From contig CM030716.1 of the NCBI GenBank assembly GCA_017979445.1, positions 17,007,443-17,071,442 on the forward strand: 64,000 nt of DNA, given 5' to 3'. Below are positions 894-62,581 of the stretch, piece by piece. The notes under the pieces are model-generated. The model was not told the DNA's origin, made no database searches, and was given only the letters and a program-made list of their open reading frames with translations. This DNA comes from Akebia trifoliata (lineage: Eukaryota; Streptophyta; Magnoliopsida; Ranunculales; Lardizabalaceae). Numbering within the stretch: the first letter of the stretch is position 1; each line of letters begins with the position of its first letter. The position numbers and the translations under genes were made by a program.

Positions 894-1303
894 AGGTCCT
901 CACACCCTATTTTCGTATCAAATGATAAATCCTAAGAGAAGTAGGTCTAAAAGCCTCCCTAGCCTCCCTAGCCTCCCATAAACCCTAGTTTTGGAGTCCT
1001 AACTCCTTACCTAACATCCCTTCTTCGATTTTAGCCTAAAAAAATCTAAAAGCCCTTCAAAAACACCCCAAAAGTCCATAACAAACTCGATCAGAAAAGA
1101 GATACCTTGCCTCGGAGATCAGAAATCAAATCCGGAGACAAAACGAAGTAAGGAGTATGGTACAAGAAGCAATTTTTGTCAGATTTGAGGGAACAAGGTC
1201 TTTGCTATCGAAAAGGTATAATTTTTTATTTATTTTTATTATCTAGATTTTTTAGCAATGTAACTTATTTGGAAAATTAGTAGAGATCGGCTTTGGCCGG
1301 GCG

Positions 1304-1330
1304 GGGTTGGTGCCTAACACCTTCCAACCC
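1304..1330 (+). promoter_or_regulatory. Conserved LTR stem-loop, copy 1
   Basis: Stem GGGTTGG (1304-1310) pairs with CCAACCC (1324-1330) around the 13-nt loop TGCCTAACACCTT (1311-1323). The position, about 165 nt before the LTR end, puts it in R or U5 of the transcript. Confidence 0.7.
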
Positions 1331-1494
1331 TGTAATGTGATCCTCGAATTCAGTTTTTTATTTCTGTTCTAGATTAGTTTTTTATCCGTTTAGAGTCATT
1401 GATCGGTTCGTAGACCGTAATAACTAGGTGGCGACTCCCAAACCTCAAGGGTCAAAAGCGGATCCGCGCACCCTGCGGATCGAGGGCGCTTTCA

Positions 1495-13230: not shown

Positions 13231-14104
13231 AAAAGTTAGAGTAACAAAGAAAAATAGAAGAAAATCTCCATAGAGTCGAAGAGCTAAAAGGTGGTTCGAG
13301 TTGAAACATCAGAGTCTGAATAATCAAGTTCAACACTTAGCTTAAACCAGGCAGAGACTCAGAAGCTACAAGTATCTTGTTTACGATTGATCTGAAATTT
13401 TTTGCTTCCCCAAGTAAATCAAAGGGAGAGAAGGGTGAATTCTATGATGAGTCTCAAAAAGAAATATTTTGTTCTCTTAAGCCTGACTCAAAATCTTCTA
13501 TAAAATTAATCAAAATTAAAAGTTGGATATTTATTGTGCTTGTGGTAATCAAATATTTCAAACCTTCATACAAGGGGCATTTTCTTTTTCCTCTAAATAT
13601 GTAGTTTCCCCCCCTAATACTAGGGGCATTTTTTTTTAAAATTTTTGCATGATGTGTTCAATTATCTTCAATGGCATGTTTATTGTCAAACTAGGGGCAT
13701 TTTATTTTTGAGCAATGTTAATCCTAAAAGATAATGGGAACCCCAAACTTAAGGTTACCCTCTTGATAACAGTTTTTTGAAAAACCCTTGAGGTTCAAAA
13801 GAAATAAAAACTCAGGTTTTTAATTCATAAAATTTTTGGATAAAACCTTGAGGTTCAAACAAAAGCATTTCGGATCTCACATTTGACTGTCCCCAGAGAT
13901 TAACTAATAACTCATTTACCTAGAGTAGGAGATATGACATTCTTTCGTTCCTAGATTTTTTTTCAGATCCATTCATTCTTGGATTCGATCATTATCTTCC
14001 AGATTTATTCGTTCCCCGATTCATTTTAATCAGTTTTCTCCAAATTCATTCATTGATTCCCAAAATTCATTCATTCCTCTGTTAGTTTTGCTCAGTTACC
14101 GCCA

Positions 14105-14500
14105 ATGATTATCTTGGATTTTGCTCAGATGTCGTCAAGGGTTATCTTGGATTTTGCTCAGTTGCCGCTAAGGGTTAACTTGGATTTTGCTCAGATGCCG
14201 CCAAGGGTTATCTTGGATTTTGCTCAGATGTCGCCAAGGGTTAACTTGGATTTTGCTCAGTTACCGCCAAGGATTATCTTAGATTTTGCTCAGTTGTTGT
14301 TAAGGGTTATCTTGAATTTTGCTCAGTTGCCGCCAAGGGTTATCTTGAATTTTGCTCAGTTGTCGCCCAGGGTTATCTTGGATTTTGCTCAGTTGCCTTT
14401 GAGGGTAATCGTGGATTTTGGTCAGATACCGCCAAGGGTTAACTTGGATTTTGCTCAGTTGCCGCCAAGGGTTATATTGGATTTTGCTCAGTTACCGTCG
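14105..14500 (+). repeat. 33-bp repeat array, 12 copies, with open frame (element A)
   Basis: Twelve units of 33 bp (for example TTGGATTTTGCTCAG plus about 18 nt) follow one another. Because 33 is a multiple of three, one frame stays open over 14105-14641 and reads as 11-residue repeats of the type LDFAQLPPRVI. The related array in element B (20051-20510) also keeps an open frame. The units are not identical (P/S/L changes). A protein product is possible but unsupported: there is no recognised domain and no clear promoter, and a satellite array in the 3' untranslated region is the simpler reading. Confidence 0.85.
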
Positions 14501-14514
14501 AGGGTTTTATCGGA

Positions 14515-14690
14515 ATTATGCTCAGTTTATGTTCCAATTATACTCAGATTATGCTCAGTTTATGCTCAATTTATGCTTAGATTATGTTTAGTTATGTTCA
14601 GTTTATGCTCAGTTTATGCTCAGATTATGCTCAAATTATGATCAGTTTATGCTCAATTTATATTCATTTTATGCTCAGATTTTACTCAGT
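14515..14690 (+). repeat. Short tandem repeat TTATGCTCAG-type (element A)
   Basis: About a dozen imperfect 12-13 bp units of TTATGCTCAGTT follow the 33-bp array directly and share the GCTCAG core with it, so they look like a shorter product of the same sequence. The inverse (GCATAATCTGAGC) is at about 19318-19385 in element B. Confidence 0.75.
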
Positions 14691-15000: not shown

Positions 15001-16737
15001 TGTAGACACCCCATTTTTGCATTCGCCTTATTAATTAATTCGTCAACCCGATTGCAACGGTTCCAAATGATGGATGATTATTCCAATGCTTTATTTTGTC
15101 ACTAGATATGTTTCAAAAATCTAGATGAGATATCTCGAATTGACAAAATTGTAGAAACCACACTACACTAGGAAAATATAACCCCAAAAACATAGAAATC
15201 ATCATTTTTCAAACAAAAAGAAGCTTCACGATAAAAATCACTAAAAATGACCCAATTACCAAAATACCCCTAATATCAAAATAACCTTAGAGCCTACCTT
15301 TCGCTTAGAAAAACCTTTCCAAACACATAAAACAACAAATCAAAATCAAAATCAAATAAATCATTTCGCCAATTTTCACAGAATTTGACAAAATTATGAA
15401 AATGCCCCTCATAAAGTTCACAACCATTCCACACAAAAAATTTCATAAATGACACAAACCAATATTTCCATTGAATTCCTTACGAAAAATCGATTCTAAA
15501 ACATCCTAGAACATAAAAAATCGACTTGAAACACAAAAAGTCCTCTACGAGGGCAAAACGATAATTTTATAATTTTTATAATTAAAAATTTCAAAATTAA
15601 TAAATAAAATATTAAATAATTAAAGTGAAACATTAATAAAATTAATTTAAAAATTAAAAAAAAAATTCAATCAATCAGGCTCTCAGGTTGTTGATGGTCG
15701 CCAAGATATTTATTCAATGACCCCTCCATTTGGGGGTGCAAAGAATTAAAGATATAATAGAGAGGGGTTCTTCAAAAAATTAAAGTCAATCAAGTAAGAC
15801 TAAAGTCAAAATATTAAAGATAATCAAGTAAGACTAAACTCAAAATTAAATTCAATCAAGTAAGACTAAAGTCAAGATATTAAAAGTCAACAAAGAAAGA
15901 CTAAAGTCAAAATCTTAAAGTCAATCAAATAAGACCAAAAGTCAAAATCCTAATAGAGTTCTAATTAAATAATAATTCTATTTAACAATCCTAATTAAAT
16001 AATGACTCTATTTAATAGAATTCTAACTAAAATATAATTCTACCTAAAACAATTCTAATTAAAATATAACTCTAACTAAAAGAATTATAATTAAACACTA
16101 ATTCTATCTAAACAAACACTTAAAAAATCTATAAATAGGAGCTTCCACACCCTATTTTCGTATAAAATAATAAACCCTAAGAGAAGTAGGTCAAAAAGCT
16201 TCCCTAGCCTCCCATAAATCCTAATTTTGAAGTCCCAACTCCTTACCTAACACCCATACTTCGCTTTTAGCTTAAAAAATACCTAGAAGCCCTTAAAAAA
16301 TACCCAGAAATCCGTAAACAAATTTGAAGAATCCAGATCTACGAAAGAGATACCTTGCCTTGGAGATCAAAAATCAGATCTGGAGACAGAACGAAGCAAG
16401 GAGTACTGTACAAGGTACGATTTTATCAGATCTGAGTGAATAGAATCGTTGCGTTCGAAAGTAAAATTCTTTTATTTTTTTTTTATCTAGGTCTTTTTGT
16501 TAGCAATGTAGTTTTATTTGGGATAAGTAGAGACCAGCATTGGCCGGTTGGGGTTGGTGTCTAACACCTTCCAACCCCGTAACGTGATCCCTGGACCCAT
16601 ATTTTTTATAGTAGATTAGTTGATTTATCCGTTTCGAGTCTCTATTAGGTTCCTAGACCGTAATAACTAGGTGGCGACTCCCAAACCTCAAAGGTCAAAA
16701 GCGGATCCGCGCACCCCGCGGATCGAGAACGCTTTCA
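15001..16737 (+). mobile_element. Family I LTR, 3' LTR of element A
   Basis: It runs from TGTAGACACCCC to GAACGCTTTCA, 1737 bp. U3 repeats lie at 15780-15950, the TATA box at 16130-16138, the stem-loop at 16550-16578 and the PBS-like TGGCGACTCC at 16672-16681. The polypurine tract abuts its start. The right flank is a family III LTR fragment in opposite orientation, so element A inserted into that LTR. Confidence 0.9.
16550..16578 (+). promoter_or_regulatory. Conserved LTR stem-loop, copy 2
   Basis: GGGGTTGG (16550-16557) pairs perfectly with CCAACCCC (16571-16578) around TGTCTAACACCTT, which has one change from the loop consensus. Confidence 0.75.
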
Positions 16738-17494: not shown

Positions 17495-18988
17495 TGAAAG
17501 TGCCCTTAATCGGCGGGGTGTGCGGATTCACTTTTGACTTTGAGGTTTGGGAGTTGCCACCTAGTTATTACGGTCTAGGAATCGAACATCGACTCAAAAC
17601 GGATAAAAACAACTAATCTACTAAAAAAATCGAGTCCGGGGATCACGTTACGGGATTGGAAAGTGCTAGGCACCAACCCCGCCCGACAAACGTCGGTCTC
17701 TACTAATTCCCAAGAATATTACATTGCTAAAGACCTAAAATAAATAAAAAAGACAAAGAAATTATACTTGTGACGATACGACTTTTTTTCTCAGATATGG
17801 TAAAATAATTTCTCGTATAAATTCTTCTCACTTTGTTCTATCACTGGATCTGTATCAGATTTCTAAAACGAAGTATTTCCTCCTAAGATATGAGTTTTTC
17901 CTAGTATTGTTATGGGTTTCTAAGTGGCTTTTGGAAAGTTTTGAGAGTTTTTTTATTATAAAAGTTAGGGTTTGGATGATAGGTAAGGGGTTAGGACTTC
18001 AAAATCAAGGTTTTGGAAAGGATAGGGTGGCTTTTTAATCTACTTTTTCTAGGATTTTCTTTGACTTACGAAATTCGATTGTGGGGACTCTCTATTTATA
18101 GAGTTTTTTGGGTAGAGTTAGTGTTTGATTAGGTTTCTTTTAGGATTTTGACTTTAGTTTTATGAGATTGACTTGGTCTTTTTAGATTAGGGTTTTGACT
18201 TAAGTCTTATGAGATTGACTTGGTTCCTTTAGATTAGGGTTTTAATTAGGATTTCGACTTAAGTCTTATGAGATTGACGTGGTTCCTTTAGATTAGGGTT
18301 TTAATTAGGGTTTTCACTTAAGTCTTATGAGATTGAATTGGTTTAGATTTTTAATTTTATTAAGATTTTACTTTACGTTAATTAATATTTTATTTATTAA
18401 TTTTGAAATTAAAAATTTTAAAAATTGAAAAATTACCATTTTGCCTTCAAAGATAATTTTTGCATTTCAAGTCGATTTTCGATGTTCCGGGATGTTTTGA
18501 AATCAATTTTTCGTAAGGAATTCAATGGATTATTGGTTTGTGTCATTTATGAAATTTTTTTGGCGTGAAATGATTGTCAACCTTATGAAGGGTATTTTCG
18601 TAATTTTATTAAATTTGGTTAAAATTGGCGAAATGGTTTATTTGATTTCATTTTGTTGTTTTATGTGTTCGAATGGGTTTTCTAAGCGTATGGGGGCCCT
18701 AAGGATGTTTTGATATTAGGGGTATTTTGATAATTTGATCATTTTTTAGTGATTTTTATCGTAAAACTTCTTTTTGTTTGCAAGATGATGATTTCTATGT
18801 TTTTGGGGTTATATTTTCCTAGCGTAGCGTGGCTTTTACAGTTTTGTTAGTTTGAGATACTTCATCTGAATTTCTGAAACATATCTAGTAACAAATAAAG
18901 CATTGAAACAATCATCCATCGTTAGGAATCGTCGCGATCAGATTGACGAGTTAATTAATCTGGCGAGTACAAAAATGGGATGTTTACA
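17495..18988 (-). mobile_element. 3' LTR of element B
   Basis: The minus strand begins TGTAAACATCCC at 18988 and ends GGGCACTTTCA at 17495. It carries the stem-loop at 17652-17680, an inverted TATA region near 18110 and expanded U3 repeats containing CTTATGAGATTGACTTGG in plus orientation (18150-18335). The polypurine tract lies directly at 18989. Confidence 0.88.
17652..17680 (-). promoter_or_regulatory. Conserved LTR stem-loop, copy 3
   Basis: On the minus strand GGGGTTGG pairs with CCAATCCC (one G-T wobble) around TGCCTAGCACTTT, which has two changes from the consensus loop. Confidence 0.65.
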
Positions 18989-19394: not shown

Positions 19395-20050
19395 AATGTC
19401 TTACTCTACCTACCCTGGGTGAAAGAGTAATGAACAATTTTTTTTAAGGAGTCCTACTCTACCAACTCGGGGTGAAAGAGTAATGAACTAATTTTCTGGG
19501 AGTCCTACTCTACCTACTCAGGTGAAAGAGTAATGAACTAATTTTCTGGGAGTTCTACTCTACCTACTTGGGGTGAAAAAGTAGTAAACTAATTTTCTAG
19601 GAGTCTTATCTACCTACTTAGGGTAAAAGAGTAATGAACTAATTTTCTGGGGAGTCTTACTCTTCCTACTCGGGGTGAAAGAGTAATGAACTAATTTTCT
19701 GGGAGTCCTACTCTACCTACTTAGGGTGAAAGAGTAATGAACTAATTTTATAGGAGTTCTACTCTACCTACTCGGGTGAAAGAGTAATGAACTAATTTTC
19801 TGGAAGTCTTACTCTAACTACTCGGGGTGAAATAGTAATAAACTAATTTTCTGGAAGCTCTACTCTACCTACTCGGGGTGAAAGAGTAATGAACTATTTT
19901 TCTGGAAGTTCTACTCTACTTACTCGGGGTGAAAGAGTAATGAACTAATTTTCTGGAAGTTCTACTCTACCTACTCAGGGTGAAAGAGTAATGAACTAGT
20001 TTTCTGGAGTTCTATTCTACCTACTCGGGGTGAAAGAGTAATGAACTATC
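19395..20050 (-). repeat. About 52-bp tandem array, roughly 13 copies, element B only
   Basis: In plus orientation each unit contains CTACTCTACCTACTCGGGG, then TGAAAGAGTAATGAACTAA and TTTTCTGG. At least a dozen units run without a gap up to the 33-bp array. Element A has only single-copy related text (TAGAGTAGGAGATATG near 13922), so the array expanded after the two elements diverged. It lies in the 3' untranslated region, where Ogre/Tat elements are known to breed satellite-like repeats. Confidence 0.9.
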
Positions 20051-20510
20051 TGAGTAAAATCTGAGCAAAATCCAAGAAAACCCTCGGCGGTATCTAACTG
20101 AGCATAATCCGAGAAAACCATCGGTGAAAACTGGCTGAGCATATTCTGAGAAAACCCTCGGTGGCAACTGAGAAAAATTTGAGATAACCCTCGACGGCAT
20201 CTGAGCAAAATCCGAGATAGCCCTCTGCGACAACATCTGAGCAAAATCTAAGAAAATCCTTGACGAAAACTGAGCAAAATCTGAGATAACCCTCGGCTGC
20301 ATCTGAGCAAAATCTGAGATTACCCTCGGCGGCAACTGAGCAAAATCTGAGATAACCTTCGACGGCATCTGAGCAACATCCGAGATAACCCTCGGTGGTA
20401 ATTGAGTAAAATCCAAGATAATCCTCGACGGCATCTGAGCATAATTCTGAGAAAACTCTCGGCGGTATCTGAGCATAATTCCGAGAAAACCCTCGGCGGC
20501 ATATGACTGA
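20051..20510 (-). repeat. 33-bp repeat array with open frame (element B)
   Basis: About ten to thirteen units, homologous to 14105-14500. On the minus strand one frame stays open over 20638-20021 and reads 11-residue repeats such as ISDFAQMPSRV. Two other frames are also long because the unit length is a multiple of three, which weakens the case for selection on any one frame. Confidence 0.85.
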
Positions 20511-27619: not shown

Positions 27620-27637
27620 TCCCCAGTGGAGTCGCCA
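27620..27637 (-). other. Primer-binding site of element B, tRNA-Arg type
   Basis: The minus strand reads TGGCGACTCCACTGGGGA one base after the LTR end. From memory the 3' end of plant tRNA-Arg(ACG) is complementary at 17 of these 18 positions. The same site follows the LTRs of elements C and D. Confidence 0.85.
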
Positions 27638-27638
27638 C

Positions 27639-29186
27639 TGAAAGCGTCTTCGATCTGCAGGGTGTGCAGATCCGCTTTTGACTTTGAGGTTTGGGAGTCG
27701 CCACCTAGTTATTACTGTTTAGGAACAGAACATCGACTCAAAATGGATAAAAATAACTAATCTACTAAAAAAAATCGAGTCCGGGGATCAGGTTACGGGG
27801 TTAGAAGGTGCTAGGAACCAACCCCGCCCGACAAACGCCGGTCTCTACTAATTTCCAAGAATATTACATTGCTAAAGACCTAAAATAAATAAAAAAGACA
27901 CAGAAATTATACCTGTGACGATCGCAACGACTTGTTTCCTCAGATATGGTAGAACAGTTTCTTGTATAAATTCTTCTCACTTTGTTCTATCACTGGATCT
28001 GCATCAGATCTCCAAAACGAAGTATCTCCTCCTTACATTTGAGTCTTTCCTACTATTGTGATGGGTTTCTAGGTGGCTTTCGGGAAGTTTTGAGAGATTT
28101 TTTGATAAAAGTTAGGGTTTGGATAATAGGTAAGGGGTTAGGACTTCAAAATCAGGATTTTGGGAAGGATAGGGTGGCTTTTTGACCTATTTTTTCTAGA
28201 ATTTTCTTTGACCTACGAAATTAGGTTGTGGAGGCTCTCTATTTATAGAGTTTTTTGGGTAGAGTTAGTGTTTGATTAGGTTTCTTTTAGGGTTTTAATT
28301 AGGATTTTGACTTTAATTTTATGAGATTGACTTGTTCTTTTTAGATTAGGGTTTTAATTAGGATTTTGACTTAAGTCTTATGAGATTGACTTGGTTCCTT
28401 TAGATTAGGATTTTGACTTAAGTCTTATGAGATTGACTTGGTTAGGATTTTAATTAGGGTTTTGATTTAAGTCTTATGAGATTGACTTGGTTCCTTTAGA
28501 TTAGGGTTTTGACTTAAGTCTTATGAGATTGAATTAGTTTAGATTTTTAATTTTATTAAGGTTTTACTTTACGTTAATTAATATTTTATTTATTAATTTT
28601 AAAATTAAAAATTTTAAAAATTGAAAAATTATCGTTTTGCCCTCGAAGAGAACTTTTGCATTTCAAGTCGATTTTCGATGTTCCAAGATGTTTTGGAATC
28701 AATTTTTCGTAAGGAATTTAATGGGATTATTGATTTGTATTACTTATGAATTTTTTTGGCGTGAAATGATTGTCAACCCTTATGAGGGGCATTTTCGTAT
28801 TTTTATCGAATTTGGTGAAAATTAGTGAAATGATTTATTTGATTTCATTTTGTTGTTTAATGTGTTCGAAAGGGTTTTTCTAAGCGTAAGGGGGCTCTAA
28901 GGATGTTTTAATATTAGGGATATTTTGATAATTTGATAATTTTTTAGTGATTTTTATCGTAAAACTTCTTTTTGTCTACAAGATGATGATTTTTATGTTT
29001 TTGGGATTATATTTTCCTAGCGTAGCGTGATTTTTACAGTTTTGTTAGTTTGAGATACTTCATCTGAATTTCTGAAACATATCTAGTAACACATAAAGCA
29101 TTGAAATAATCATCCATCATTGGGAATCGTCGCGATCAGGTTGACGAGTTGATTAATCTAGCGAGTGCAAAAATGGGGTGTCTACA
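27639..29186 (-). mobile_element. 5' LTR of element B
   Basis: The minus strand begins TGTAGACACCCC at 29186 and ends GACGCTTTCA at 27639, 1548 bp. It has the stem-loop at 27797-27825, an inverted TATA box near 28240 and U3 repeats at 28263-28535. It pairs with the 3' LTR at 17495-18988. Confidence 0.9.
27797..27825 (-). promoter_or_regulatory. Conserved LTR stem-loop, copy 4
   Basis: On the minus strand GGGGTTGG pairs with CTAACCCC (one G-T wobble) around TTCCTAGCACCTT. Confidence 0.65.
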
Positions 29187-32551: not shown

Positions 32552-33119
32552 TGTAGACACTCAAATTTGATCGGGCCCTCGATGCAAAGTGCCCCCAAAT
32601 AGTAAAAATTGGAATGGACCCAAGGCCCAAACCTACAAAAGTCCAATGTATTTTGTCATTATTTTTCAATAAACAGCCCAAGGCTTCCCAAGTGGCCCAC
32701 GGACCAAAGACCCCTTACCACCTAAGCCCACTAATTTTTAACTGAACCACAACCCAATTCAACTCAACCCATCCCTATTCAACCTACCACCTAAGCCCAT
32801 GCAACTCAATTCTATCCATTACTCTACCCAAGCCCAATTATTCCTCAACCCAACACTATACCCACCCAATCCATTACCCAAGCCCAACTCTCAACCCAAC
32901 CCAACATTATACCTACCCAGTCCATTACCCAAGCCCAACTCAACACTGTACCTACCCAATCCATTACCCAAGCCCAACTCTCAACCCAACCCAACATCAC
33001 AACCAATCAACATGATAATCAAGGTGGGACACATGTCACCACCTCAATACACCTCCCTCATCCCACTACCTATCCCATCACCTTTTCTATAAACATCATC
33101 TACCTACACCTTCCCCTAA

Positions 33120-33545
33120 CCTATCCTCTTCATTCCCTATAAACACGTATTCTCTCAAATCAAACACCTCTAACTCATACCTCCCTCTAACCTACCCTCA
33201 TCATTCTTTATAAATAGCTATTCTCTCAAATCAAACACTTCTAACCCATACCTCCCCCTAACCTACATTCATCATTCTCTATAAACACCTATTCGCTCAA
33301 ATCAAACACCCCTAACCCATACCTCCCCTTAACCTACCCTTATCATTCCCTATAAATCCATATTCTCTCAAATTAAACACTTCCAACCCATACCTCCCCC
33401 TAACCTACCCTTATCATTCCCTATAAACTCTTATTCTCTCAAATTAAATACCTCCAACCCATACCTCCCCCTAACTTACTCTCATCATTCCCTATGAACT
33501 CCCATTTTCTCAAATCAAACACTTCATCCCCTCTCATCACCTCAT
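33120..33545 (+). repeat. 71-bp tandem repeat, six copies, each with a TATAAA-like box
   Basis: Units start at 33120, 33191, 33262, 33333, 33404 and 33475, exactly 71 bp apart. Each contains CATTCCCTATAAAC or a close form and CTCAAATCAAACAC. The array lies about 360-780 nt upstream of the likely core promoter at 33900. The other family II LTRs have only single or degenerate copies (near 45170-45300 and 61300-61450). Confidence 0.92.
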
Positions 33546-33899
33546 CTAAATCTCTAATCTCCACACATTTAGACACATGTCACCATCTCCCTTACCCTCC
33601 CAAAACCTAATCAACCACCCTCTTACACCACCTATCCTTTTAATTAAAACTCACTCCCTTTTTACCTCACCAATCAATCACCCTCTTAATCAAACACCAT
33701 TTATTCCTTATCACTTAATATACCCTAATGGGTTGAGAGATCCAATCCATTTGAATTACAAATAACCCATATAACCCCCCTTCCCTAAATATCCTTCCAT
33801 CCCCTCCAATTTACATATACCCCTATATAAAATCCCTAACCATTTTACTCATTATCATCAATCCATCCCATTTTACCCTTAAAAATACTCTCCAAATCC

Positions 33900-33906
33900 T
33901 ATAAAA
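33900..33906 (+). promoter_or_regulatory. TATA box of the family II solo LTR
   Basis: TATAAAA followed by CCCCCCTCATTCTCAACC. The same box and downstream text occur at 45667-45673 in the element C LTR, and a related TATAAATA at 61823-61830 in the element D LTR. Confidence 0.65.
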
Positions 33907-34597
33907 CCCCCCTCATTCTCAACCCAGAAAAACTTAATGAAAAATTAAGAAAAATTCACTCTCAACTCAACTCTCTACTCTCAACTCACCTTTCTACTCT
34001 CAACTACCTTCTACTCTACTCTCATACTCTCACATTATTTTAAAATACATCATCATATTATACTAAGGACTTGAAGAAGAAGAAGAAGAAGGAAGAAAAT
34101 AAAAGAAGATCTTAAAGCTTCAAGGTAGGGTCAAAAGAACACCCCCTCTCTCTCTATCCTTTCCATATCCCTATTCTATTACCCCTTTCACCTCTCTTTA
34201 ATTTCTATTTTAGAAAACTACTAAGATGTGATGTTCTCCCTCCCCTATCTTTGATAGATCAGACTTCGGTTCGGTTGAAAGTATAGGGGTTGTAACCCTT
34301 TTCAAAATAAAAATCGATTTTTGAATCTCTTAAATCATTTTGAGGCTACCAATTTTTGTATCCTTCTCAACTCATGAGAATGGTTCCATAACCATCGCTA
34401 ACACTTTTCAAAAGCACATGTAGTTCATAAGGCTAAGTGTTTATAAGGATCATCTCCTTCAATAAGATGATCCTATAATTGAGTCAAAAATAAATCCCTA
34501 CTTAGGGTACAAGTTATTGACATGTGGCACTTTATTTTATTTTACATTTTCTATTAAAAAATGATCGAGTTGAGTTGAGTTTACCACTACTTGGTGG

Positions 34598-34632
34598 GGA
34601 GAAAATGATGCCTAACACCTTCTCTTTTCTCC
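34598..34632 (+). promoter_or_regulatory. Conserved LTR stem-loop, copy 8
   Basis: GGAGAAAATGA faces CTCTTTTCTCC around the exact consensus loop TGCCTAACACCTT (34609-34621). Eight outer pairs hold and the inner three do not, so this is the weakest stem. Confidence 0.6.
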
Positions 34633-34827
34633 GATTGAACTGCTTACCCCCGATCTTGGGTTAGATCGATATTTTATCCATTTAGAGTCACTAAACGCCA
34701 AAATGACACATTTTCTAAAAAATGTAAATTGGGTGACCATTCACATCCCCTTACAATATGAATGGTGGCGACTCCAAACCTTCGTAGAAGTGACACTCAT
34801 AATCGAGAATCACGCATCTACACACTA

Positions 34828-42822: not shown

Positions 42823-43205
42823 TGTAGACACCCTAATTTGAACGGACCCCCACTCGAAAGGGCCCAAAAACAACAAATTTTCAATAAAATTGGCCAACAG
42901 GCCTCAAAAGCCCGAATCACTCAAATATGACATTATGATCGAATCGAGGCCCCTGAGACCTCTTAGTGGTCTAGTGGGCCCACCAAAAGGACTTGACCTA
43001 CCCTACACCTTTCCAACTTCCACCAGCTCCACTCCCAAAACAAAAATACTCGATTTTTCGATAAATTCACCAACGGGCCTAAAAAGCCCGATTTGCCAAC
43101 ACGTGGCATTTTAATCAATCTAATGATCCCCAAAATCCCTAAAAGAATAAATTATACAAAATGAGACTTGGGATACTTATCACTTTCCACAACCTTCACC
43201 GCTCC

Positions 43206-44842
43206 TGAATGCGCCCTCGATTCGCGGAGTGCGCGGATCCGCTTTTGACCCTTGAGGTTTGGGAGTCGCCACCTAGTTATTACGGTCTAGGAATCTAACT
43301 TTGACTCTAAAAGGTAAATAAACTAATATACGAAAGAAAAATACGGGTTCGGGTATCACGTTACGGGGTTGGAAGGTGTTAGGCACCAACCCCGCCCGGC
43401 AAACGTCAGTCTCTACTTATCCCAAATAAGACTACATTGTTAACAAAAAAAGAAATTTTACCTTCGAACGCAACGATTATATTCCCTCAGATCTGATAAA
43501 ATCGCTCATTGTACTGTACTCCTTGTTTCGTTCTGTATTCGGATCTGATTTCTAATCTCCGAGGCAAGGTATCTCTTTCTTAGATCTGGATTCTTCGAAT
43601 ATTTTTATAGATTTTGGGATGTTTTTGAAGGGCTTCTAGGTGTTTTTTAAGCTGAAATCGAAGTATGCGTATTTGGTAAGGAGTTAGGGCTTCAAAATTA
43701 GGGTTTATGGGAGGCTAGGGAAGCTTTTTCACCTACTTCTCTTAGGGTTTATTATTTGATCCGAAAATAGGTTGTGAGGACCCCTATTTATAAATTTTTT
43801 TAAGTGTTTGTTTAGATAGAATTAATGTTTAATTATAATTCTTTTAGTTAGAGTTATATTTTAATTATAATTGTTTTAGGTAGAGTTATATTTTATTTAG
43901 AATTCTATTAAATAGAGTTATTATTTAATTATGATTGTTAAATAGAATTATTATTTAATTAGAACTCTATTAGGATTTTGACTTTTGATTTTATTTGATT
44001 GACTTTAAGATTTTGACTTTAGTCTTACTTGATTGACTTTAATATCTTGACTTTAGTCTTACTTGATTGACTTTAATTTTTTGGAGAACCCCCCTCTATT
44101 ATATATTTAATTCTTTGGACCCCCAAATAGAGAGGTCCTTGAATAAATATCTTAGCAACCATCAACAATTTTGCCTGAGAGCCTGATTGATCGATTTTTT
44201 TTTGTTCAAATTTTTAAATTAATTTTATTAATATTTCAATTTAATTATTTAATGTTTTATTTATTAATTTCGAAAATTTTAATTATAAAAATTATAAAAT
44301 TATCGTTTTGCCCTCGGAGAGGACTTTTGCGTTTCAAGTCGGTTTTTGATGTTCTAGGATGTTTTAGAATCGATTTTTCGTAAGGAATTCAATAAGAATA
44401 TTAATTTGTGTCATGTATGAAATGGTTGTGAACTTTATGAGGGGTATTTTCGTAATTTTGTCAAATTTTATGAAAATTGACAAAATGATTTATTTAGTTT
44501 CAATTTGTTGTTTTATGTGTTTGAATAGGTTTTCCTAAGTGTAACGTAGGCTCTAGGAAAGTTTTGATGTTAGGGGTATTTTGGTAATTTCATCATTTTT
44601 TAGTGATTTTTATCATGAAACTTCTTTTTGTCTGAAAAATGATGATTTCTAAGTTTCTAAGGTCATATTTTTCTTGCGTAGCGTGGTTTCTAAGGTTTTG
44701 TCAGTTCGAGATACCTCATCCAGATTTCTGAAACATATCTAGTAATAAAATAAAGCATTGGAATAACATCCATCATTGGGAACCGTTGCGATCGCGATGA
44801 CGAGTTGATTAATCAGGCGAGTGGAAAAATGGGGTGTCTACA
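43206..44842 (-). mobile_element. Family I solo LTR nested in element C LTR
   Basis: The minus strand runs from TGTAGACACCCC (44842) to GGGCGCATTCA (43206), 1637 bp. It is bracketed by GCTCC on both sides (43201-43205 and 44843-44847), and the uninterrupted target reads CACCGCTCCGCTTCC in the element D LTR (60767-60781). It is therefore a solo LTR with a perfect 5-bp target duplication. Confidence 0.96.
43365..43393 (-). promoter_or_regulatory. Conserved LTR stem-loop, copy 5
   Basis: On the minus strand GGGGTTGG pairs perfectly with CCAACCCC around the exact loop TGCCTAACACCTT. Confidence 0.78.
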
Positions 44843-46111
44843 GCTCCGCTTCCTAATCAAATTATCCAAATCCCATCTAAAGCCCACGAACCCTCAACAC
44901 ATACAAAATGCGTTTCTCACCTTTACCCCTAACCTAAATTTAATCCCACATCACCTAAAACATACCCACCCTGGAAAACTTAATCCAAAATGACCCCAAC
45001 CAATTCCTAAAATCCAAAATCCTTCCTAGAACCCAAGCCCTTATCCATATCCAACCCATTAACCCTAACCCACATCAAACCAATCATCACTTTTTCATAA
45101 AAAATGACACATGCCATCACCTCATCTTACTTCCCTTTTCAAACCACCAACTCCCATCTCCTTCTCTAAAAAAATCACATCAACTCACACCCCCCTAACC
45201 TACTATCATCACTTCCTACTAACCAACCATCACCTTCTCCTAATCTACCCTTATCATTACCTACAAACTCATCTCTAAAACCTAAACCTACACCCCTCCT
45301 CTCAAATCAAAAAATCATTCACTCCCATCAATTAAATTTAAATTCCTAATCTCCACACACCTTGCCACATGTCACCATCTCCCTCACCCTCCCAACAACC
45401 TCTTATACCCTCCATTCTCTTATGCCAAACACCACTCAATTACAACCACCCTCTTAAACACCTATCATCTCACCTCATCAAACACTCCACCCAAATGGTT
45501 TGGGTAAGATCCAAACCACTTGGATCAAAACACAACCCATTTACCTCCATTACATAATTACCCCTCTCAACTCTTAATTTCATATCTCCCACCCTCAAAA
45601 TTTATGTCATTCTCTACTCTCCCAACATTTCACCCCATCTTACTCTTAAAAATAATTCCCAAACTCTATAAAACCCCCCTCATTCTCAACTCTTACTACC
45701 TAATGAAAATTTGAAAAAAAATTTCATCTAAAAAAATCCTTTACTCTCAACTCACCTCAACTCTCAACCCTCAATATTCAACTCTTAATTTTCTCTTAAC
45801 TTCGACTCTCTCAAGTAAGTCAAGGAAAGTCAAAGAAGGTCAAGAAGAACAAGGTGGGCTTTGGACAAGAATCACCCCCCTTCTCTCCTCCCCACTTCCC
45901 TCTTCTACTTCTCCCCTTCTCTACACCTACACATACACCACCAATGGCTTGAACCATCAAAAGGGCCCATTTTTCAATAAGGGTGCCCTCAATGGTTTGA
46001 ATCAATATCAAAGTCTCTCATACTTGAGGGCACATATCGGATTTTTTGATTTTCTTTCATTTTATTTTTATTTTAAAAAAATGATCGAATCTGAGGTTAC
46101 CACCATGGTAG

Positions 46112-46146
46112 ATGGAGTAGGGTGCCTAACACCTTCCCTACTCCAT
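46112..46146 (+). promoter_or_regulatory. Conserved LTR stem-loop, copy 6
   Basis: ATGGAGTAGGG (46112-46122) pairs perfectly over 11 bp with CCCTACTCCAT (46136-46146) around TGCCTAACACCTT. Apart from the loop-closing G-C pairs, the stem sequence differs from that of family I. Confidence 0.82.
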
Positions 46147-46355
46147 AAAATGAGCCCCCTTACCTAAAATCAAAAGTTGAACCAAATGAGTCATATCCGT
46201 ACGAGAGTCACCAAAATGTCAAAATTGATATATTTTAAAAAAAAATGTAATCTGGGTAACCATTCACACCCATTTCAAATATGAATGGTAGCGACTCCAA
46301 AATCCCCCAAATTGGATGATATATTCAAAATTGAATAAATCACGTGTCCACAGCT

Positions 46356-46373
46356 TAGCGACTCCACTGGGGA
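46356..46373 (+). other. Primer-binding site of element C (mutated)
   Basis: TAGCGACTCCACTGGGGA lies three bases after the LTR end. It differs from the element B and D sites by G to A at position 2, which would unpair one base of the tRNA CCA end. Confidence 0.82.
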
Positions 46374-50095: not shown

Positions 50096-51060
50096 TTCGT
50101 GTCGATGCTTGCTCCGTGCTGATGAATTCATTTTTCAAAATGTTTTACCGACTCTGTGTCAATGCTAACTCCGTGCTGATGTAATTTCTTTTTAAAAATG
50201 TTTTACCGACTCCGTGTCGATGCCAACTCTGTACTGATGTAATCATTTTTAATTTTATCGACTCCGTGTCGATGCCAGCTCCGTGTTGATGAAATCATTT
50301 TTAAATTTACTGACTCCGTGTCGATGCCAGTCCCGTATGGATGGATTTCATTTTATCGACTTCGTGTCGATGCCAGCTCCGTGTTGATGAAATCATTTTT
50401 AAATTTTACTGCTCCGTGTCGATGCCAGCTTTGTGTTGATGTAATCGTTTTAATTTTTACCGGCTCCGTGTCGATGCCAGCTCCGTGCTGATGAAATCTT
50501 TTTTAATTTTATCGACTCCGTGTCGATACCAGTCCTGTGCGGATGGAATTCATTTTACCCACTCTGTGTCGATGCCAGCTCCGTGCTGATGTAATCATTT
50601 TAATTTTTACCGATTCCGTGTCAATGCCAACTCCGTGCTGATAAAATCTTTTTTAATTTTATCGACTCCGTGTCGATGCCAGTCCCGTGCAGATGGAATT
50701 CATTTTATCGACTCCGTGTCGATGCCAGCTCTGTGCTGATGAAATCATTTTTAAATTTTACCGACTCCGTGTCGATGCGAGCTCCGTGCTGATGTAATCG
50801 TTTTAATTTTTATCGGTTCCATGTTGATGCCAGCTCCGTGCTGATGAAATTTTTTTAATTTTATCAACTCCGTGTCAATGCCAGCTCCGTGCTGATGGAA
50901 TGCATTTTTAATTTTACCGACTCTGTGTCGATGCCAGCTATGTGCTGATGAAATCATTTTTAAATTTTACCAATTCCTTGTCGATGCCAGCCCCGTGCGG
51001 ATGTAATTCGTTTACCGATTCCGTGTCGATACCGGCTCCGGTTGATGTAATTCTTTTTTA
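50096..51060 (+). repeat. 53-bp tandem array, about 18 copies, between ORF1 and gag
   Basis: The unit holds CGACTCCGTGTCGATGCCAG, CTCCGTGCTGATG and an AAATCATTTTTAAATTTTA tail. Copies vary by substitutions and small deletions; some shortened units (near 50330 and 50560) use GTCCCGTGCGGATGG. CTCCGTGTCGATG and CTCCGTGCTGATG are themselves related, so each unit began as a duplicated 20-mer. The minus-strand ORF at 50957-50751 is a by-product of the repeat. Long satellite-like arrays are known in Ogre/Tat elements. Confidence 0.93.
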
Positions 51061-58582: not shown

Positions 58583-59720
58583 GTTTTTTTGGAATTTAAG
58601 GGATTTGTCTCAATCGAATGGACCTTTGGACAGAACAAAATATGAAAGGGATGAGTATGACTTTGATCTTGAACTCGACTTTGATCTCATGGGAATTGAG
58701 GAAGAGTCTGAGGACGAAGTGGAATACCCTCTTAAAGAAATTAAAGATCTTCTAGAGTGACATGAAAAGGTGTTCAGCCAAACATTGAGGATGTAGACTC
58801 GGTTAATTTTGGCACTGAAGATGACCCACGCGTTGTAAAAATCAGAGCCTTGTTAACCCCTCAGGAGGAAGAAAAAATGATTGAACTATTGCATAACTAT
58901 CAAGACATCTTTACCTGGTCTTATAGAGATATGCCTGGTTTAGTCACAGATTTTGTTGTTTATAAGCTGTCGATCGCTCTTGAGAGTAAGCCGATCAAAC
59001 AAAAGTTGAGAAGACTCAAGCCAGAATGGACACTCAAAGTCAAAGATGAAGTGATGAAACAGTTCTAAGCAGGATTTCTCGCAATCTCCGCGTACCCCGA
59101 ATGATTGGCCAATGTCGTTCCGATACCAAAGAAGGACGTGAAAGTACGAATGTAAGTCGATTATCGAGATTTGAACAAAGTCGATGGATGATTTTCTATT
59201 ACCCCACATCGACACTCTAATCGATAGCACAACTGGGCATGGTATGTTCTCATTCATAGATGGTTTCTCAGGCTATAATCAGATAAAAATGGTAGAAAAA
59301 GACCATGAAAAGACAGTTTTCATCACACCCTGGGGCACTTTTCATTACAAAATCATGCCATTCGAACTCAAGAACGTTGGGGCAACCTATCAACACGCAA
59401 TAATGACTTTATTCCACGATATGATAAACAAAGAAATTGAGGTTTATGTGGATGATATGATCGCTAAGTCTAGCTTAGAGGAAAACCATCTGATAAACTT
59501 GAGAAAGTTGTTCAATCAACTAAGGAAGTACAGTCTGAGACTCAATCCAGTAAAATGCGTCTTCGGGGCAATATCAGGAAAATTATTAGGCTTTATCGTC
59601 AGTAGAAGAGACATCGAAATAGATCCAACAAAGACCAAGTACATTCTTGAGATGAAAGCACCAGTGTTAGAAAGGGACGTCAAAGTATTTTTGGGCAGAA
59701 TATAATATATCAGCAGATTC
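58583..59720 (+). pseudogene. pol: Element C reverse transcriptase
   Basis: An acidic lead (DFDLELDFDLMGIEEESED) precedes the RT. The RT begins ALLTPQEEEKMIELLHNYQD and FTWSYRDMPG (58846-58935), then KLRRLKPEW, VPIPKKDVKVRM and DYRDLNK up to a deletion/frameshift at about 59180. The next frame (59184-59705) holds FSFIDGFSGYNQIKM, TPWGTFHYKIMPF, the catalytic EVYVDDMIAKS (YVDD at 59445-59456), LNPVKCVFGAISGKLLGFIV and the thumb start. Stops at 59066, 59102 and 59154 disable it. It would copy the element RNA into DNA. Both YVDD aspartates and the D of the FIDGFSGY block are present. Confidence 0.93.
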
Positions 59721-60240
59721 ATTACGCAACTCACTCCTATTTGCGAATCAATCTTCAAACTGCTAAGAAAAGATGTGCCAAAAGCGTGGACCGAGGACTG
59801 TCAGTAAGCCTTCGACAAGATAAAGAAATATCTGCTCAATCTGCCAGTCTTGGTTCCTCCTACACCAGGGCAACCCTTACTAATGTATTTCTTAGTACAA
59901 GAAACATCTATGGGTTGTGTATTGGGACAACACGACGAGTTAGGTCAAAAAGACCAAGCCATTTACTATCTCAACAAGAAGTTCACCGATTATGAGGCAA
60001 AATACTCGGCGCTCGAGAAGACTTGTTGTGCACTGGTCTGGGCATCTCAACGATTGTGCCACTACCTCCTCAGTTACTCAACTATACTTATTACTCGAAT
60101 GGACCCTTTCAAGTATCTCTTCAAGAAGCCAGCGCTGACAGGTCGCACCGCAAAATGGCAATTACTATTATCTGAGTTCGACATCACCTATGTCACTTAA
60201 AAGCCCATCAAGGGACAAGCCATTGCCGACCACTTAGCTG
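59721..60240 (+). pseudogene. Element C first RNase H
   Basis: The frame carries VPPTPGQPLLMYFLVQETSM, GCVLGQHDELGQKDQAIYYL, KFTDYEAKYSALEKTCCALV, LTGRTAKWQLLLSEFDI and, after a stop at 60198, GQAIADHLAEHP. This is the RNase H directly following RT in Ty3/gypsy elements. In Tat elements this domain is usually degenerate and acts mostly as a tether. A stop near 59804 also breaks it. Confidence 0.88.
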
Positions 60241-60329
60241 AGCATCCCTTACTTTACTATGAGCCATTAAAGACAAATTTCCTAGATAAGACCATCTTGT
60301 TGATAGAAGTTGAAGATAGAGACGAAGAG

Positions 60330-60570
60330 CAAGGTTGGAAGATGTATTTCGATTGAGTTGCAAATCAGAAAAAAAATGGAATAGGAGCAGTTTTGATCAA
60401 ACCAGATGGATCTCATGTTTCGATCGCAATCCGATTCAAGTTCCAATGTTCCAATAACGAGGTAGAGTATGAAGCATGTATCGCAAGGTTAAAAGCAGCA
60501 ATTGACTTGGAAGTGGACGAAATCGATGTATTTAGAGATTCAAGTCTAGTGGTCTATCGGACAATTGGAG
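60330..60570 (+). pseudogene. Element C second RNase H, cut by element D
   Basis: Reads WKMYFD, a stop, then VANQKKNGIGAVLIKPDGSH, CSNNEVEYEACIARLKAAID and VFRDSSLVVYRTIG. The three acidic positions of the archaeal-type RNase H (FD, EYE, RDS) are kept. A second RNase H is the hallmark of Tat elements. Element D begins directly after the DSSLVVYRTIG block, so the last helix and the integrase are lost to view. Confidence 0.88.
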
Positions 60571-62560
60571 TGTAGACACCTCAATTTGAAGCCAGTTCTC
60601 GAAAGGGCCCAAAAATATCAATTTTCCAAATAAATGGGCCAACGGGCCTTAAGGGCCCAAGTCATTGAAAAGTGACATTTTTATCAAACCGAGGCCCCTA
60701 AGACCTCTCAATGGTTTAGGAGGCCCACCAAAAGGACTCGGCCTACCTTATGCTTTCCCAATATTCACCGCTCCGCTTCCAAAATCCAAAACGCCAAATT
60801 TTCGATAAATTTCATCAACGGGCCTAAAAAGCCCGATTCGCCAACACGTGGCATTTTTTATCAAACTAATGATTGCAAAAATCTAAAAAAATTAAAAAAT
60901 TAAAAATGTGAGACTTGGGATGCCTACCCCTTCTCTACTACCACCGCTCCACCTCCGAATCCGTAAAAACCATAGGCCCACATAAGGCCCACAAGCCCTC
61001 AACACTTTCTTAAATCGATTTCTCACCTTACCCCTAGCCTAAAATCAATCCCACATCACCTAAAATCTAAAACCAACCTACACCCTCAAAATCCATTCCA
61101 AAATAACCCTCAACTAATCCTTAAAACCCAAAACCATTTCTAAAACCCAAGTCCAACACTACAAAGCCCACAAATCATTAACCATATCCAATTCATTATC
61201 CAACCCACAACCCACATCAACCAATCACTCTTTTATCATCAAAAGATGAAACATGTCATCACCCCATCTCACCTCCCTCATCCAACCACCTACCCCATTA
61301 ATTCTCTTTAAACCTCATCTACCTACACATCAACCCATCACCTTTTCTCTCAAATCAAACACATCAACCCACACCCCTAACCTATACCTCCCCTAATCTA
61401 CCCTCATCATTCCCTACAAAACCTACATCTACAACCTAAACCTACACCATCCTCTCAAGTCAAACACTCAACCTCTCCCATCAACCTATCTCAACCCTTC
61501 ATTTTCAACCACTTTGACACATGGCATCATCTCCTTCACCCTCCCAAAATATCATCAACCACCTCTTTAAATCCTCCATTCTCTTAAACTAAATACCATT
61601 TAATCTCAACCACCATCTTAAACTCACCTCACCAAATACTCCACCCAAATGGGTTGGGTAAGATCCAAACTATTTGGGTCAAAACTCACCCATTTAACCC
61701 CCCTTCCCTAAATACCCTCCAATCTCCTCTAAATTACACCCACTTCTCTCTCAAACTCATAACTATTCTATCCTTTTTTTTCACTTCACCCCATTATATC
61801 CCTAAAATAACTCCTCAACATCTATAAATACCCTCATCCTCTTCCCAAAAATTCCCCCAACTTTCACTACAAAAATTCTCCCCTCCCACTCTTACAAAAA
61901 AAAATACTACCAATTCTCTCCCCCAAGTCTCACAAAAAAAATTTATTATACTCCACTCATCTCTCTCATCATCTTTTCTCTACTCCTTCAACCATACAAG
62001 AATTGTATTTTCATAAAATACTAAGGACTCAAGAAGAAGAAAAGAAGAAAGAAGATATAAGGTGGGTTCAAGGAAATCCCCCCCCTCTCTCTTCTACACC
62101 CTCTCCTCCTCCCTCTTCTATCACCCCTCTCCCATTCATTTTATTTTTTAGGATGAATGGACCCCAAGGCTAAAGGTCTATAAGGGTCATTTCCATCAAT
62201 GGAATGACCCTATGATCAAGCCGAAAATGAACCCCTATCTAGGGTACAAATGCACCCACGTGGCACATTTTTTTTCACATCTTTTTAAATAAAAAAGGAC
62301 CGAGTTGAGTTGAGGTTACTACTATTTAGTGGGGAGAAAAGGGTGCCTAACACCTTCCCTTTTCTCCAACCGAGTTGCTTACCCCGTATCTCAAAGATTT
62401 GATCCGTACCTTATCCATCGAGAGTCACTAAACGCCAAAATGTCACTTTTTCAAAAAATGTACATCGGGTGACCATTCACACCCACTTACAAAAATGAAT
62501 GGTGGCGACTCCAAACCATCGTAGATGTGACCGTCGTAATGACGAAATCACGTATCTACA
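60571..62560 (+). mobile_element. 5' LTR of element D (family II), inserted in element C
   Basis: It runs from TGTAGACACC to CGTATCTACA, 1990 bp. Stem-loop at 62333-62367, TATAAATA at 61823-61830, TGGCGACTCC at 62503-62512. A primer-binding site and leader follow, so it is the 5' LTR of a new element and not the 3' LTR of element C. The left target flank is TGGAG; the partner is outside the window. Confidence 0.9.
62333..62367 (+). promoter_or_regulatory. Conserved LTR stem-loop, copy 7
   Basis: GGAGAAAAGGG (62333-62343) pairs perfectly over 11 bp with CCCTTTTCTCC (62357-62367) around TGCCTAACACCTT: a third independent stem sequence on the same loop. Confidence 0.82.
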
Positions 62561-62563
62561 GCT

Positions 62564-62581
62564 TGGCGACTCCACTGGGGA
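62564..62581 (+). other. Primer-binding site of element D, tRNA-Arg type
   Basis: TGGCGACTCCACTGGGGA, three bases after the LTR end, identical to the element B site. Confidence 0.88.

Follow-up and report, generated by a model that had tools for sequence, protein, structure and literature searches.

The 64-kb window considered here, that is, the whole stretch of DNA that was analysed, contains long terminal repeats (LTRs) of two families, several of which stand next to a primer-binding site. Family II is represented on the forward strand by an LTR at 42823..46352, which is followed by a primer site and interrupted by a nested solo LTR of family I in the opposite orientation (43206..44842, reverse strand; 5-bp target duplication GGAGC), by a solo LTR at 32552..34822 with the 5-bp target duplication CACTA, and by an LTR at 60571..62560 that is again followed by a primer site. 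Family I further includes an LTR at 27639..29186 on the reverse strand, with a primer site after it, and one at 15001..16737 on the forward strand, with a polypurine-like stretch before it. Wherever both ends were found, the LTRs begin with TGTAGACA and end with CA, and thus carry the hallmarks of LTR retrotransposons. On the forward strand, a reverse transcriptase domain (RT, RVT_1; 59175-59705) is followed by an RT-RNase H (RT_RNaseH; 59808-60200) and a second RNase H (RVT_3, PF13456; 60357..60575, 27.8 bits against a cut-off of 21.6). RVT_1, RT_RNaseH and RVT_3 hence succeed one another at 59175-60575 in the gene order of the Tat clade, the mark of which is a second, archaeal-type RNase H (aRH) besides the RT-RNase H (PMC6317226). 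The coding parts in the window are broken and were searched as separate pieces; to judge from its place, the RT/RNase H coding stretch would belong to an element bearing the hairpin that concerns us here. A tRNA-Arg primer-binding site, which we take to link the element to the Ogre subclade of Tat, is present; its 18 nt complement the 3' end of tRNA-Arg(ACG) together with CCA. It is exact at 62564..62581 on the forward strand and at 27620..27637 on the reverse strand, and has one mismatch at 46356..46373 on the forward strand.

The feature of interest is a pair of hairpins within these LTRs, namely a small hairpin 1 and a second one in which stem 2 carries a constant loop. An earlier note on this DNA had reported a 13-nt loop in eight LTR copies, and TGCCTAACACCTT indeed lies at all eight places, five times exactly, once with one change and twice with two. 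These are the eight matches with at most two mismatches in the window, as against a mean of 1.18 in shuffled sequences, none of 100 of which reached eight. The family I pairs lie on the forward strand at 1277..1338 (73.2 bits with the covariance model R1; loop 1311-1323, exact) and 16524..16585 (68.5 bits; loop 16558-16570, one change), and on the reverse strand at 17645..17706 (66.9 bits; loop 17660-17672, two changes), 27790..27851 (67.4 bits; loop 27805-27817, two changes) and 43358..43419 (74.7 bits; loop 43373-43385, exact). Those of family II are all on the forward strand and have exact loops: the copy at 34598, with the weakest stem and the weakest of the eight under the covariance model (34574..34637, 52.3 bits; loop 34609-34621), the copy singled out in the earlier note (46090..46151, 67.9 bits; loop 46123-46135; stem 2 at 46112-46146), and that at 62309..62372 (66.9 bits; loop 62344-62356). 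The arms agree with their earlier description, save that the family I stem has 9 bp plus an outer G.U pair and not 8 bp. Model R1 spans 63 positions and recovers the same eight copies from the window, with none beyond them at E up to 1, a result that is not independent, since four of the eight are rows of its own training alignment. Searches against Rfam gave no family at gathering threshold in the window, one sub-threshold match (24.5 bits against a threshold of 60) elsewhere in the LTR and on the opposite strand, and no matches in four loci at E 0.1. The loop contains no palindromic 4-mer, so that kissing-loop dimer initiation, which would use a self-complementary loop of about 6 nt, was rejected, and dimerisation, which had been among the functions first suggested, is not borne out in that form. 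A predicted alternative fold, in which GGUG pairs with CACC around CCUAA and leaves a bulge on the 3' side, has a similar energy and differs between copies; its inner pairs hardly vary.

Genome-wide, exact loops number at least 18,021 in 652,546,730 bases, compared with 10 for the reversed control. Two samples, anchored on the loop or on the primer site and drawn without regard to the arm sequence, were taken from this genome. The first comprises 88 loop-anchored regions from the first 100 places listed, all on a single contig (L001-L028 and L059-L118), and the second, L029-L058, is made up of the first 30 out of 2,773 exact matches to the primer-binding site. A loop with at most one change lies 176-279 nt upstream of the primer site in 29 of the 30 primer-site-anchored loci, five of these 29 (L049-L053) being units of one tandem array, and each of the 29 has at least eight of the first ten stem positions paired. 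Together with the window, and with identical 133-nt copies removed, the two samples furnished 115 matches within two changes, from which three chance matches were dropped by inspection to leave 112 copies. The 17-mer GGTGCCTAACACCTTCC has eight matches in the viral and prokaryote collections (two and six, respectively), among which no stem longer than about 5 bp was seen by eye. The plant elements concerned are abundant, and the loop offers a short marker for finding such LTRs.

The 101 distinct exact-loop copies hold 59 distinct 12-nt arm pairs, which by our reading represent at least seven stem types, and stem positions 1-10 are paired in 88-96% of these copies. When the 3' arms are dealt to other copies of the same set, pairing at positions 3-7, 9 and 10 drops to 47-79%, while positions 1, 2 and 8 are still paired in 91-95%, because the letters there hardly vary. 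An alignment of 43 copies less than 90% identical to one another (A1) has 89.1% of its stem cells paired and a covariation score of 0.621, against 0.272 +/- 0.018 in shuffled alignments (0 of 500 reaching it) and at most 0.281 in slid registers; eight of the 11 pairs show changes on both sides, a count which alone is not unusual, the shuffled mean being 6.9. From A1, RNAalifold recovered seven stem pairs unaided. Since related copies inflate pair counts, a parsimony count was added on a tree built from the sequence starting beyond the stem. It gave 16 compensatory double changes. When the 3' columns were permuted 5000 times, the count averaged 3.47 and never rose above 13; slid registers gave 1-7. 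The compensatory change of the stem that the earlier note had read from the window is thus upheld both by covariation and by the count of double changes. Taken singly, lineage II (18 chosen copies) has a covariation of 0.518 against 0.267 +/- 0.021 shuffled, whereas family I (18 chosen copies) does not depart from its shuffled value, both being 0.216; the compensatory signal is therefore placed between families and within lineage II, and not within family I alone. As regards the smaller alignments, A2 (18 rows) leaves out the decayed or odd lineage II rows L005, L023, L062, L067, L070, L088 and L117, A3 (18 rows) leaves out L017, L024, L076, L094 and L111, and A4 (27 rows) restores most of the omitted lineage II rows, leaving out L088 and L117. 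The folding z at the hairpin is -0.96 in family I and -2.16 in lineage II; lower values occur elsewhere along the LTR, and this measure does not single out the region.

Departures from Watson-Crick pairing were used as a strand test. In the inner nine pairs of the 112 copies, 54 G.U pairs stand against 32 A.C mismatches; if the count is confined to the 104 copies that have six or more Watson-Crick pairs, the numbers are 40 and 22, and in the 31 copies with exactly one departure they are 15 and 13, where the excess vanishes. Given that the copies are related to one another, this G.U excess leans modestly towards selection acting on the sense RNA. It bears on an explanation at the level of DNA, by which the inverted repeat would be a protein site or a cruciform in the double-stranded DNA of the LTR, its core of recognition being the loop. 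No part of the hairpin is more constant than the letters of the loop, as such a site would have it; the arms, however, vary freely and yet stay complementary, which is needless for a sequence-specific DNA site, and with the G.U excess also pointing to the sense RNA we consider this explanation very improbable.

The strong divergence that the earlier note attributed to the LTR around the hairpin does not hold everywhere, as several downstream blocks are conserved. Read from 5' to 3', the module comprises hairpin 1, hairpin 2, a stretch of degenerate antisense tRNA, a probable pseudoknot, a box whose letters complement the 3' terminus of the tRNA, an LTR-terminal hairpin and the 18-nt primer-binding site. 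Hairpin 1, of about 5 bp, lies directly 5' of stem 2. It is 92.2% paired in lineage II, with four of five pairs changed on both sides, and 82.2% paired in family I, the whole alignment of which has no covariation excess. A free hairpin scan gives 4.70 bp, against 4.21 in shuffled sequences and 4.08 with swapped halves; it is the fixed-position counts that support hairpin 1. In the 27 lineage II copies of A4, a GAGTC/GACTC stem is 96.3% paired and nearly invariant, and the whole structure has a covariation of 0.285 against 0.169 +/- 0.008 shuffled, and both members have changed in 19 pairs, compared with 15.2 after shuffling, where 27 of 500 shuffles attain 19. Without aid, RNAalifold recovered the terminal hairpin and a CCATTC/GAATGG helix as well as hairpin 2 and the GAGTC/GACTC stem. 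The LTR-terminal (U5) hairpin, at 62521..62559 on the forward strand (GTAGAT.GTGA / TCAC..ATCTAC), is 75.2% paired in the 27 lineage II copies, with four of ten pairs changed on both sides.

A probable H-type pseudoknot lies at 62467..62503 on the forward strand, where GGGTG/CACCC encloses ACCATTCA, which would pair with TGAATGGT; the arrangement amounts to 13 bp, which none of 40 shuffles reached. Its stems are 89.6% and 90.3% paired in the 27 lineage II copies and mostly invariant, and because they hardly vary the pseudoknot is not proven by covariation. When 60 non-redundant copies are split by reading, 21 of the 24 from lineage II reach 10-13 bp; among the other 36, 11 score 0 and the rest have 7-9 bp, often matched by shuffles. 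The box, GGTGGCGACTCC, is situated inside the LTR at 62501..62512 on the forward strand and has the letters with which the primer-binding site starts, matching its first 10-11 letters about 60-70 nt before the real site where the latter is present. With at most one change it is found in all eight hairpin-bearing LTRs of the window (at 1427, 16670, 34764, 46287 and 62501 on the forward strand and at 17550, 27694 and 43262 on the reverse strand). Its core, GGCGACTCC, is exact in 78 of the 115 matches and present within two mismatches in 105 of them, against 67 of 575 shuffled windows. The box might serve for staging or as a decoy, or might once have been a primer site. In the LTR of the 46123 loop, pseudoknot segment and box (GGTAGCGACTCC) together occupy 46254..46298 on the forward strand.

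The primer is tRNA-Arg(ACG), the gene for which was found through the complement of the primer site in two of the four loci scanned. Between hairpin 2 and GAGTC, the LTR is colinear with the antisense of this tRNA from nt 58 to nt 1: a part answering to the T loop (TCGAACCC) is followed by one for the variable region and anticodon stem (GAATCTC), by the anticodon loop (TTTCGTAGA), by the D arm (CCTTATCCATT) and then by GAGTC, the complement of the tRNA 5' end. GAGTC may be taken either to close a stem or to terminate the antisense tRNA, and may do each at different times. Over 69 non-redundant copies the mean local alignment score is 39.2. Shuffled sequences score 30.5, the antisense when reversed 30.7, the tRNA in sense orientation 26.6, and an equally long part of the LTR further upstream 27.4. 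The mean z is 2.40, exceeding 2 in 39 copies and 3 in 19 and being at most 2 in 30, and 274 of 3450 shuffles reach the observed score. In a comparison of 16 tRNAs, the primer and 15 rivals from E. coli, the primer is best in 43 of the 69 copies and has the highest mean, 39.2, followed by 33.4. Ungapped helices with at least eight Watson-Crick pairs to the primer tRNA occur in 49 of 69 copies, versus 102 of 690 shuffled sequences and 5 of 69 with the reversed tRNA; the best helix falls in the D arm in 36 of the 69, and for many copies of family I it is one formed with the anticodon arm, 13 to 15 nt in length. The D-arm complement adjoins GAGTC in both lineages, although the flanking letters differ.

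The antisense match is degenerate, and it is absent in some copies. In the LTR of the 62344 loop it extends over 62371..62426 on the forward strand (tRNA nt 1-58, score 44.2) and ends in CCTTATCCAT, a 10-nt exact complement of the D arm which 5 of 1000 shuffles reach, followed by GAGTC. In the LTR with which the earlier note was concerned, the corresponding stretch (46162..46209, forward strand) is weak: its score of 29.2 does not exceed 30.5, the mean of shuffled sequences across all copies, and its best exact complement, of 7 nt, is matched by 308 of 1000 shuffles. As judged from these alignments, the LTRs appear to hold a degenerate stretch complementary to other arms of their own primer tRNA, beyond the primer site. 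Equivalents of the stretch at 62371-62426 are also seen in other loci, for example L012, L035 and L102. That the loop itself might pair with the primer tRNA was rejected, since the match would involve 4 nt only, which 954 of 1000 shuffles reach. A search of 52 loci for a long-range partner of the loop gave no conserved one within 4 kb; complements of the loop of 8, 9 and 10 letters number 28, 15 and 10 in this range, against 20, 7 and 2 for the reversed loop, and the ten 10-mers consist of eight opposite-strand LTRs of the window and two instances of one chance site in L010.

Complementary arms and an antisense tRNA could conceivably be products of reverse transcription itself, with template switching of RT rewriting the arms in the absence of selection and the antisense tRNA surviving as an inert relic of read-through. 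Quasi-palindromes are open to correction by reverse transcriptases, which can also read on into the primer tRNA; the degeneracy of the antisense stretch would suit a relic, and pair counts cannot separate mutational upkeep from selection. Such upkeep leaves unexplained, however, the constant loop and the near 9-11 bp stem across families, the covariation in hairpin 1 and in the terminal hairpin, and the presence of the D-arm complement beside GAGTC in both lineages despite differing flanks. On balance we hold it to be unlikely.

Transcription signals help to place the hairpin on the predicted RNA. The TATA box of the 62344 LTR, CTATAAATA, is located at 61822..61830 on the forward strand; equivalents lie at 884 and 16129 (forward) and at 18093 and 28240 (reverse), variants at 45666 (forward) and 43785 (reverse), and none was found for the 34609 LTR. 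Over 46 copies, a TATA box stands upstream of the hairpin in 38, with none at the expected place in eight, and the earlier placing of the hairpin downstream of it therefore holds in most copies. Measured from the loop, the box, mostly CTATAAATA, lies at -407..-436 in 29 of 30 family I copies, at -456..-498 in five of six copies with the GAGTAGGG stem, and at -502..-556 in four of seven with GAGAAAAGG-type stems, and it was found in none of three with GGATGGGG-type stems. Transcription would then start about 380-530 nt upstream of the hairpin, which would make the hairpin part of the transcribed leader, not far from the primer site, transcription and the end of R being supported here by motifs only. 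The hairpin is probably located near the R/U5 boundary of these Tat-clade elements.

Motifs between the predicted start and the hairpin raise the question of 3'-end control, in which the hairpins, from just downstream of a poly(A) signal, would decide on cleavage, suppressing it in the 5' LTR and permitting it in the 3' LTR. A T-rich bin occupies -80..-60 in both lineages (0.67 and 0.55 T), and at -47..-56 relative to the loop AATAAA or AATGTAA occurs in family I (13 of 30 copies), among copies with GAGAAAAGG-type stems (three of seven) and among those with GGATGGGG-type stems (two of three). If a poly(A) site were used there, the RNA would end close before hairpin 1, so that the hairpins would open U5. 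A precedent of sorts is offered by foamy viruses, in which an RNA structure near the LTR poly(A) signal controls the choice of the 5' poly(A) site, though they act with U1 snRNP at a splice donor (PMC3694450). Neither motif, however, is present at -47..-56 in any of the six GAGTAGGG-stem copies, and the motifs, where found, lie upstream of both hairpins, unlike the polyA hairpin of HIV-1; the retroviral-type feature of AAUAAA inside a hairpin is thus absent. Moreover, 3'-end control would leave the constant loop, the antisense-tRNA stretch and the pseudoknot unexplained, and we regard it as rather unlikely.

A role in translation is suggested by the leaders of lineage II, which hold 9-27 ATGs each (mean 13.7, against 7.9 expected; 17 copies), so that simple scanning from the predicted start is unlikely; the hairpins might then be a landing or stalling structure for bypass of the leader, by shunt or internal entry. 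In the same vein, a start-stop of the form ATG-TAA or ATG-TAG precedes the loop by about 54 nt in all five of the window's family I copies (for example at 1257-1263), and an exact AATGTAA stands there in 13 of the 30 sampled from that family. Family I leaders are nevertheless poorer in ATGs than expected (2.5 against 4.1; 30 copies), the two lineages being opposite in this respect, nor was a short ORF with constant spacing from the stem observed in the two alike. Translation control by the hairpins is accordingly a distinctly unlikely proposition.

The reading that we favour, with confidence a little above even, is that the hairpin is a selected RNA structure of the leader, belonging to a U5 module that docks the primer tRNA-Arg(ACG) and starts reverse transcription, and perhaps serves packaging. 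Stem pairing, loop conservation and antisense similarity to the primer tRNA emerge from comparison of the copies, and it is from these that a protein ligand and a function may be proposed for the hairpin. Free stem letters under a constant loop are in keeping with a stem that presents the loop to a ligand, and its place at the head of the antisense tRNA, before the pseudoknot, box and primer site, points to a part in primer capture and the start of reverse transcription. The neighbouring antisense-tRNA stretch directs attention to docking of the primer tRNA, which does not figure among packaging, dimerisation, 3'-end formation, strand transfer and translation control, the functions that the earlier note put forward with no choice between them, and it was the antisense-tRNA result that raised our estimate of docking from an even one. 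Under primer docking, the antisense stretch would pair with the body of the primer tRNA and open it, the 3' end of the tRNA then being handed to the primer-binding site. The 5' edge of this complex would be set by the two hairpins, which would also present the constant loop to a protein (Gag or reverse transcriptase) that may meanwhile select the RNA for packaging.

A further reading, which we offer tentatively and consider doubtful, is that of a U5 domain with an antisense image of nearly the whole primer tRNA, in which the constant loop is a docking code and its refolding a switch. The primer would here be unwound by pairing with its T loop, anticodon arm, D arm and 5' end; the shared loop would let one Gag or RT complex act on the RNAs of many diverged families, and refolding of the loop (GGUG/CACC) may switch the RNA between translation and priming. 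The combination of a constant-loop hairpin with an antisense primer tRNA allows a direct test of how such elements choose their primer and their own RNA.

Several features of the proposed docking module have parallels in better known systems. In HIV-1, TAR starts the RNA, and a primer activation signal and anticodon contacts are located in U5 and the leader. The likeness is that arms of the primer tRNA pair there with sequence 5' of the primer site (see also PMC11181671); the stretches are short in HIV-1, whereas here a colinear, degenerate antisense of about 58 nt is seen, and no sequence relation exists. The TAR and polyA hairpins of HIV-1 likewise lie near an RNA end and carry a functional loop or signal (PMC2645353), whereas the hairpin described here is about 380-530 nt from the predicted start and its stem lacks AAUAAA. 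Ty3, of the same superfamily (Ty3/gypsy), also has more than one stretch complementary to its primer tRNA, its primer site for tRNA-iMet being bipartite, with two parts at opposite ends of the RNA (PMC11381356); here, in contrast, it is the LTR, on the 5' side of the primer site, that holds the additional complementarity to tRNA-Arg, which covers most of the tRNA. The Ty1 5' leader is similar in being a structured 5' RNA, its TIPIRT domain combining a pseudoknot and hairpins for translation initiation, packaging and the start of reverse transcription (PMC5454406). The tips of the Ty1 hairpins carry complementary 7-nt motifs, unlike the present loop, for which a partner was not found within 4 kb, and no sequence relation to Ty1 is claimed.

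Benachenhou et al. 2013 (PMC3601003) modelled the conserved parts of LTRs and noted stem-loops in long R regions; in that study, plant Metaviridae LTRs could not be modelled on account of their variability, and the hairpin element falls in that gap. Among the listed open-access papers, to which the search was confined, no packaging or priming RNA structure was found for plant Ty3/gypsy LTRs. The loop core, searched on either strand in open-access full texts, gave matches which, judged mostly by title, include no description of a plant LTR, the match in PMC3419647 being a PCR primer; the primer-site sequence had no match in open-access full texts. A prior description may exist elsewhere, for example of antisense tRNA in LTRs.

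A few observations concern the surroundings of the hairpin and the organisation of the copies. In lineage II, a further hairpin-like stretch lies at -195..-90 from the loop, for instance in L035 and L036 (folding z -2.5 and -2.2); in L035 it has the form GGGTCATTTC...GAAATGACCC and lies within the predicted R region. L038 has an exact primer site with no loop upstream, and would be a different element or a rearranged copy. L103/L104 (contig C1, about 6117647-6117881) is a piece of LTR joined to an inverted copy, with one loop on each strand at a distance of 222 bases from the other. Minisatellites occupy 14020-14583, 19441-20060, 33020-33587 and 50201-50761 of the window, with units of 33, about 51, 71 and 52/98 bases. 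Lastly, L049-L053 (contig C1, 7584830-7602039) have five primer sites exactly 4,298 bases apart, that is, element sequence arranged as a tandem array, and primer sites at 11028310 and 11032608 show the same 4,298-base spacing.
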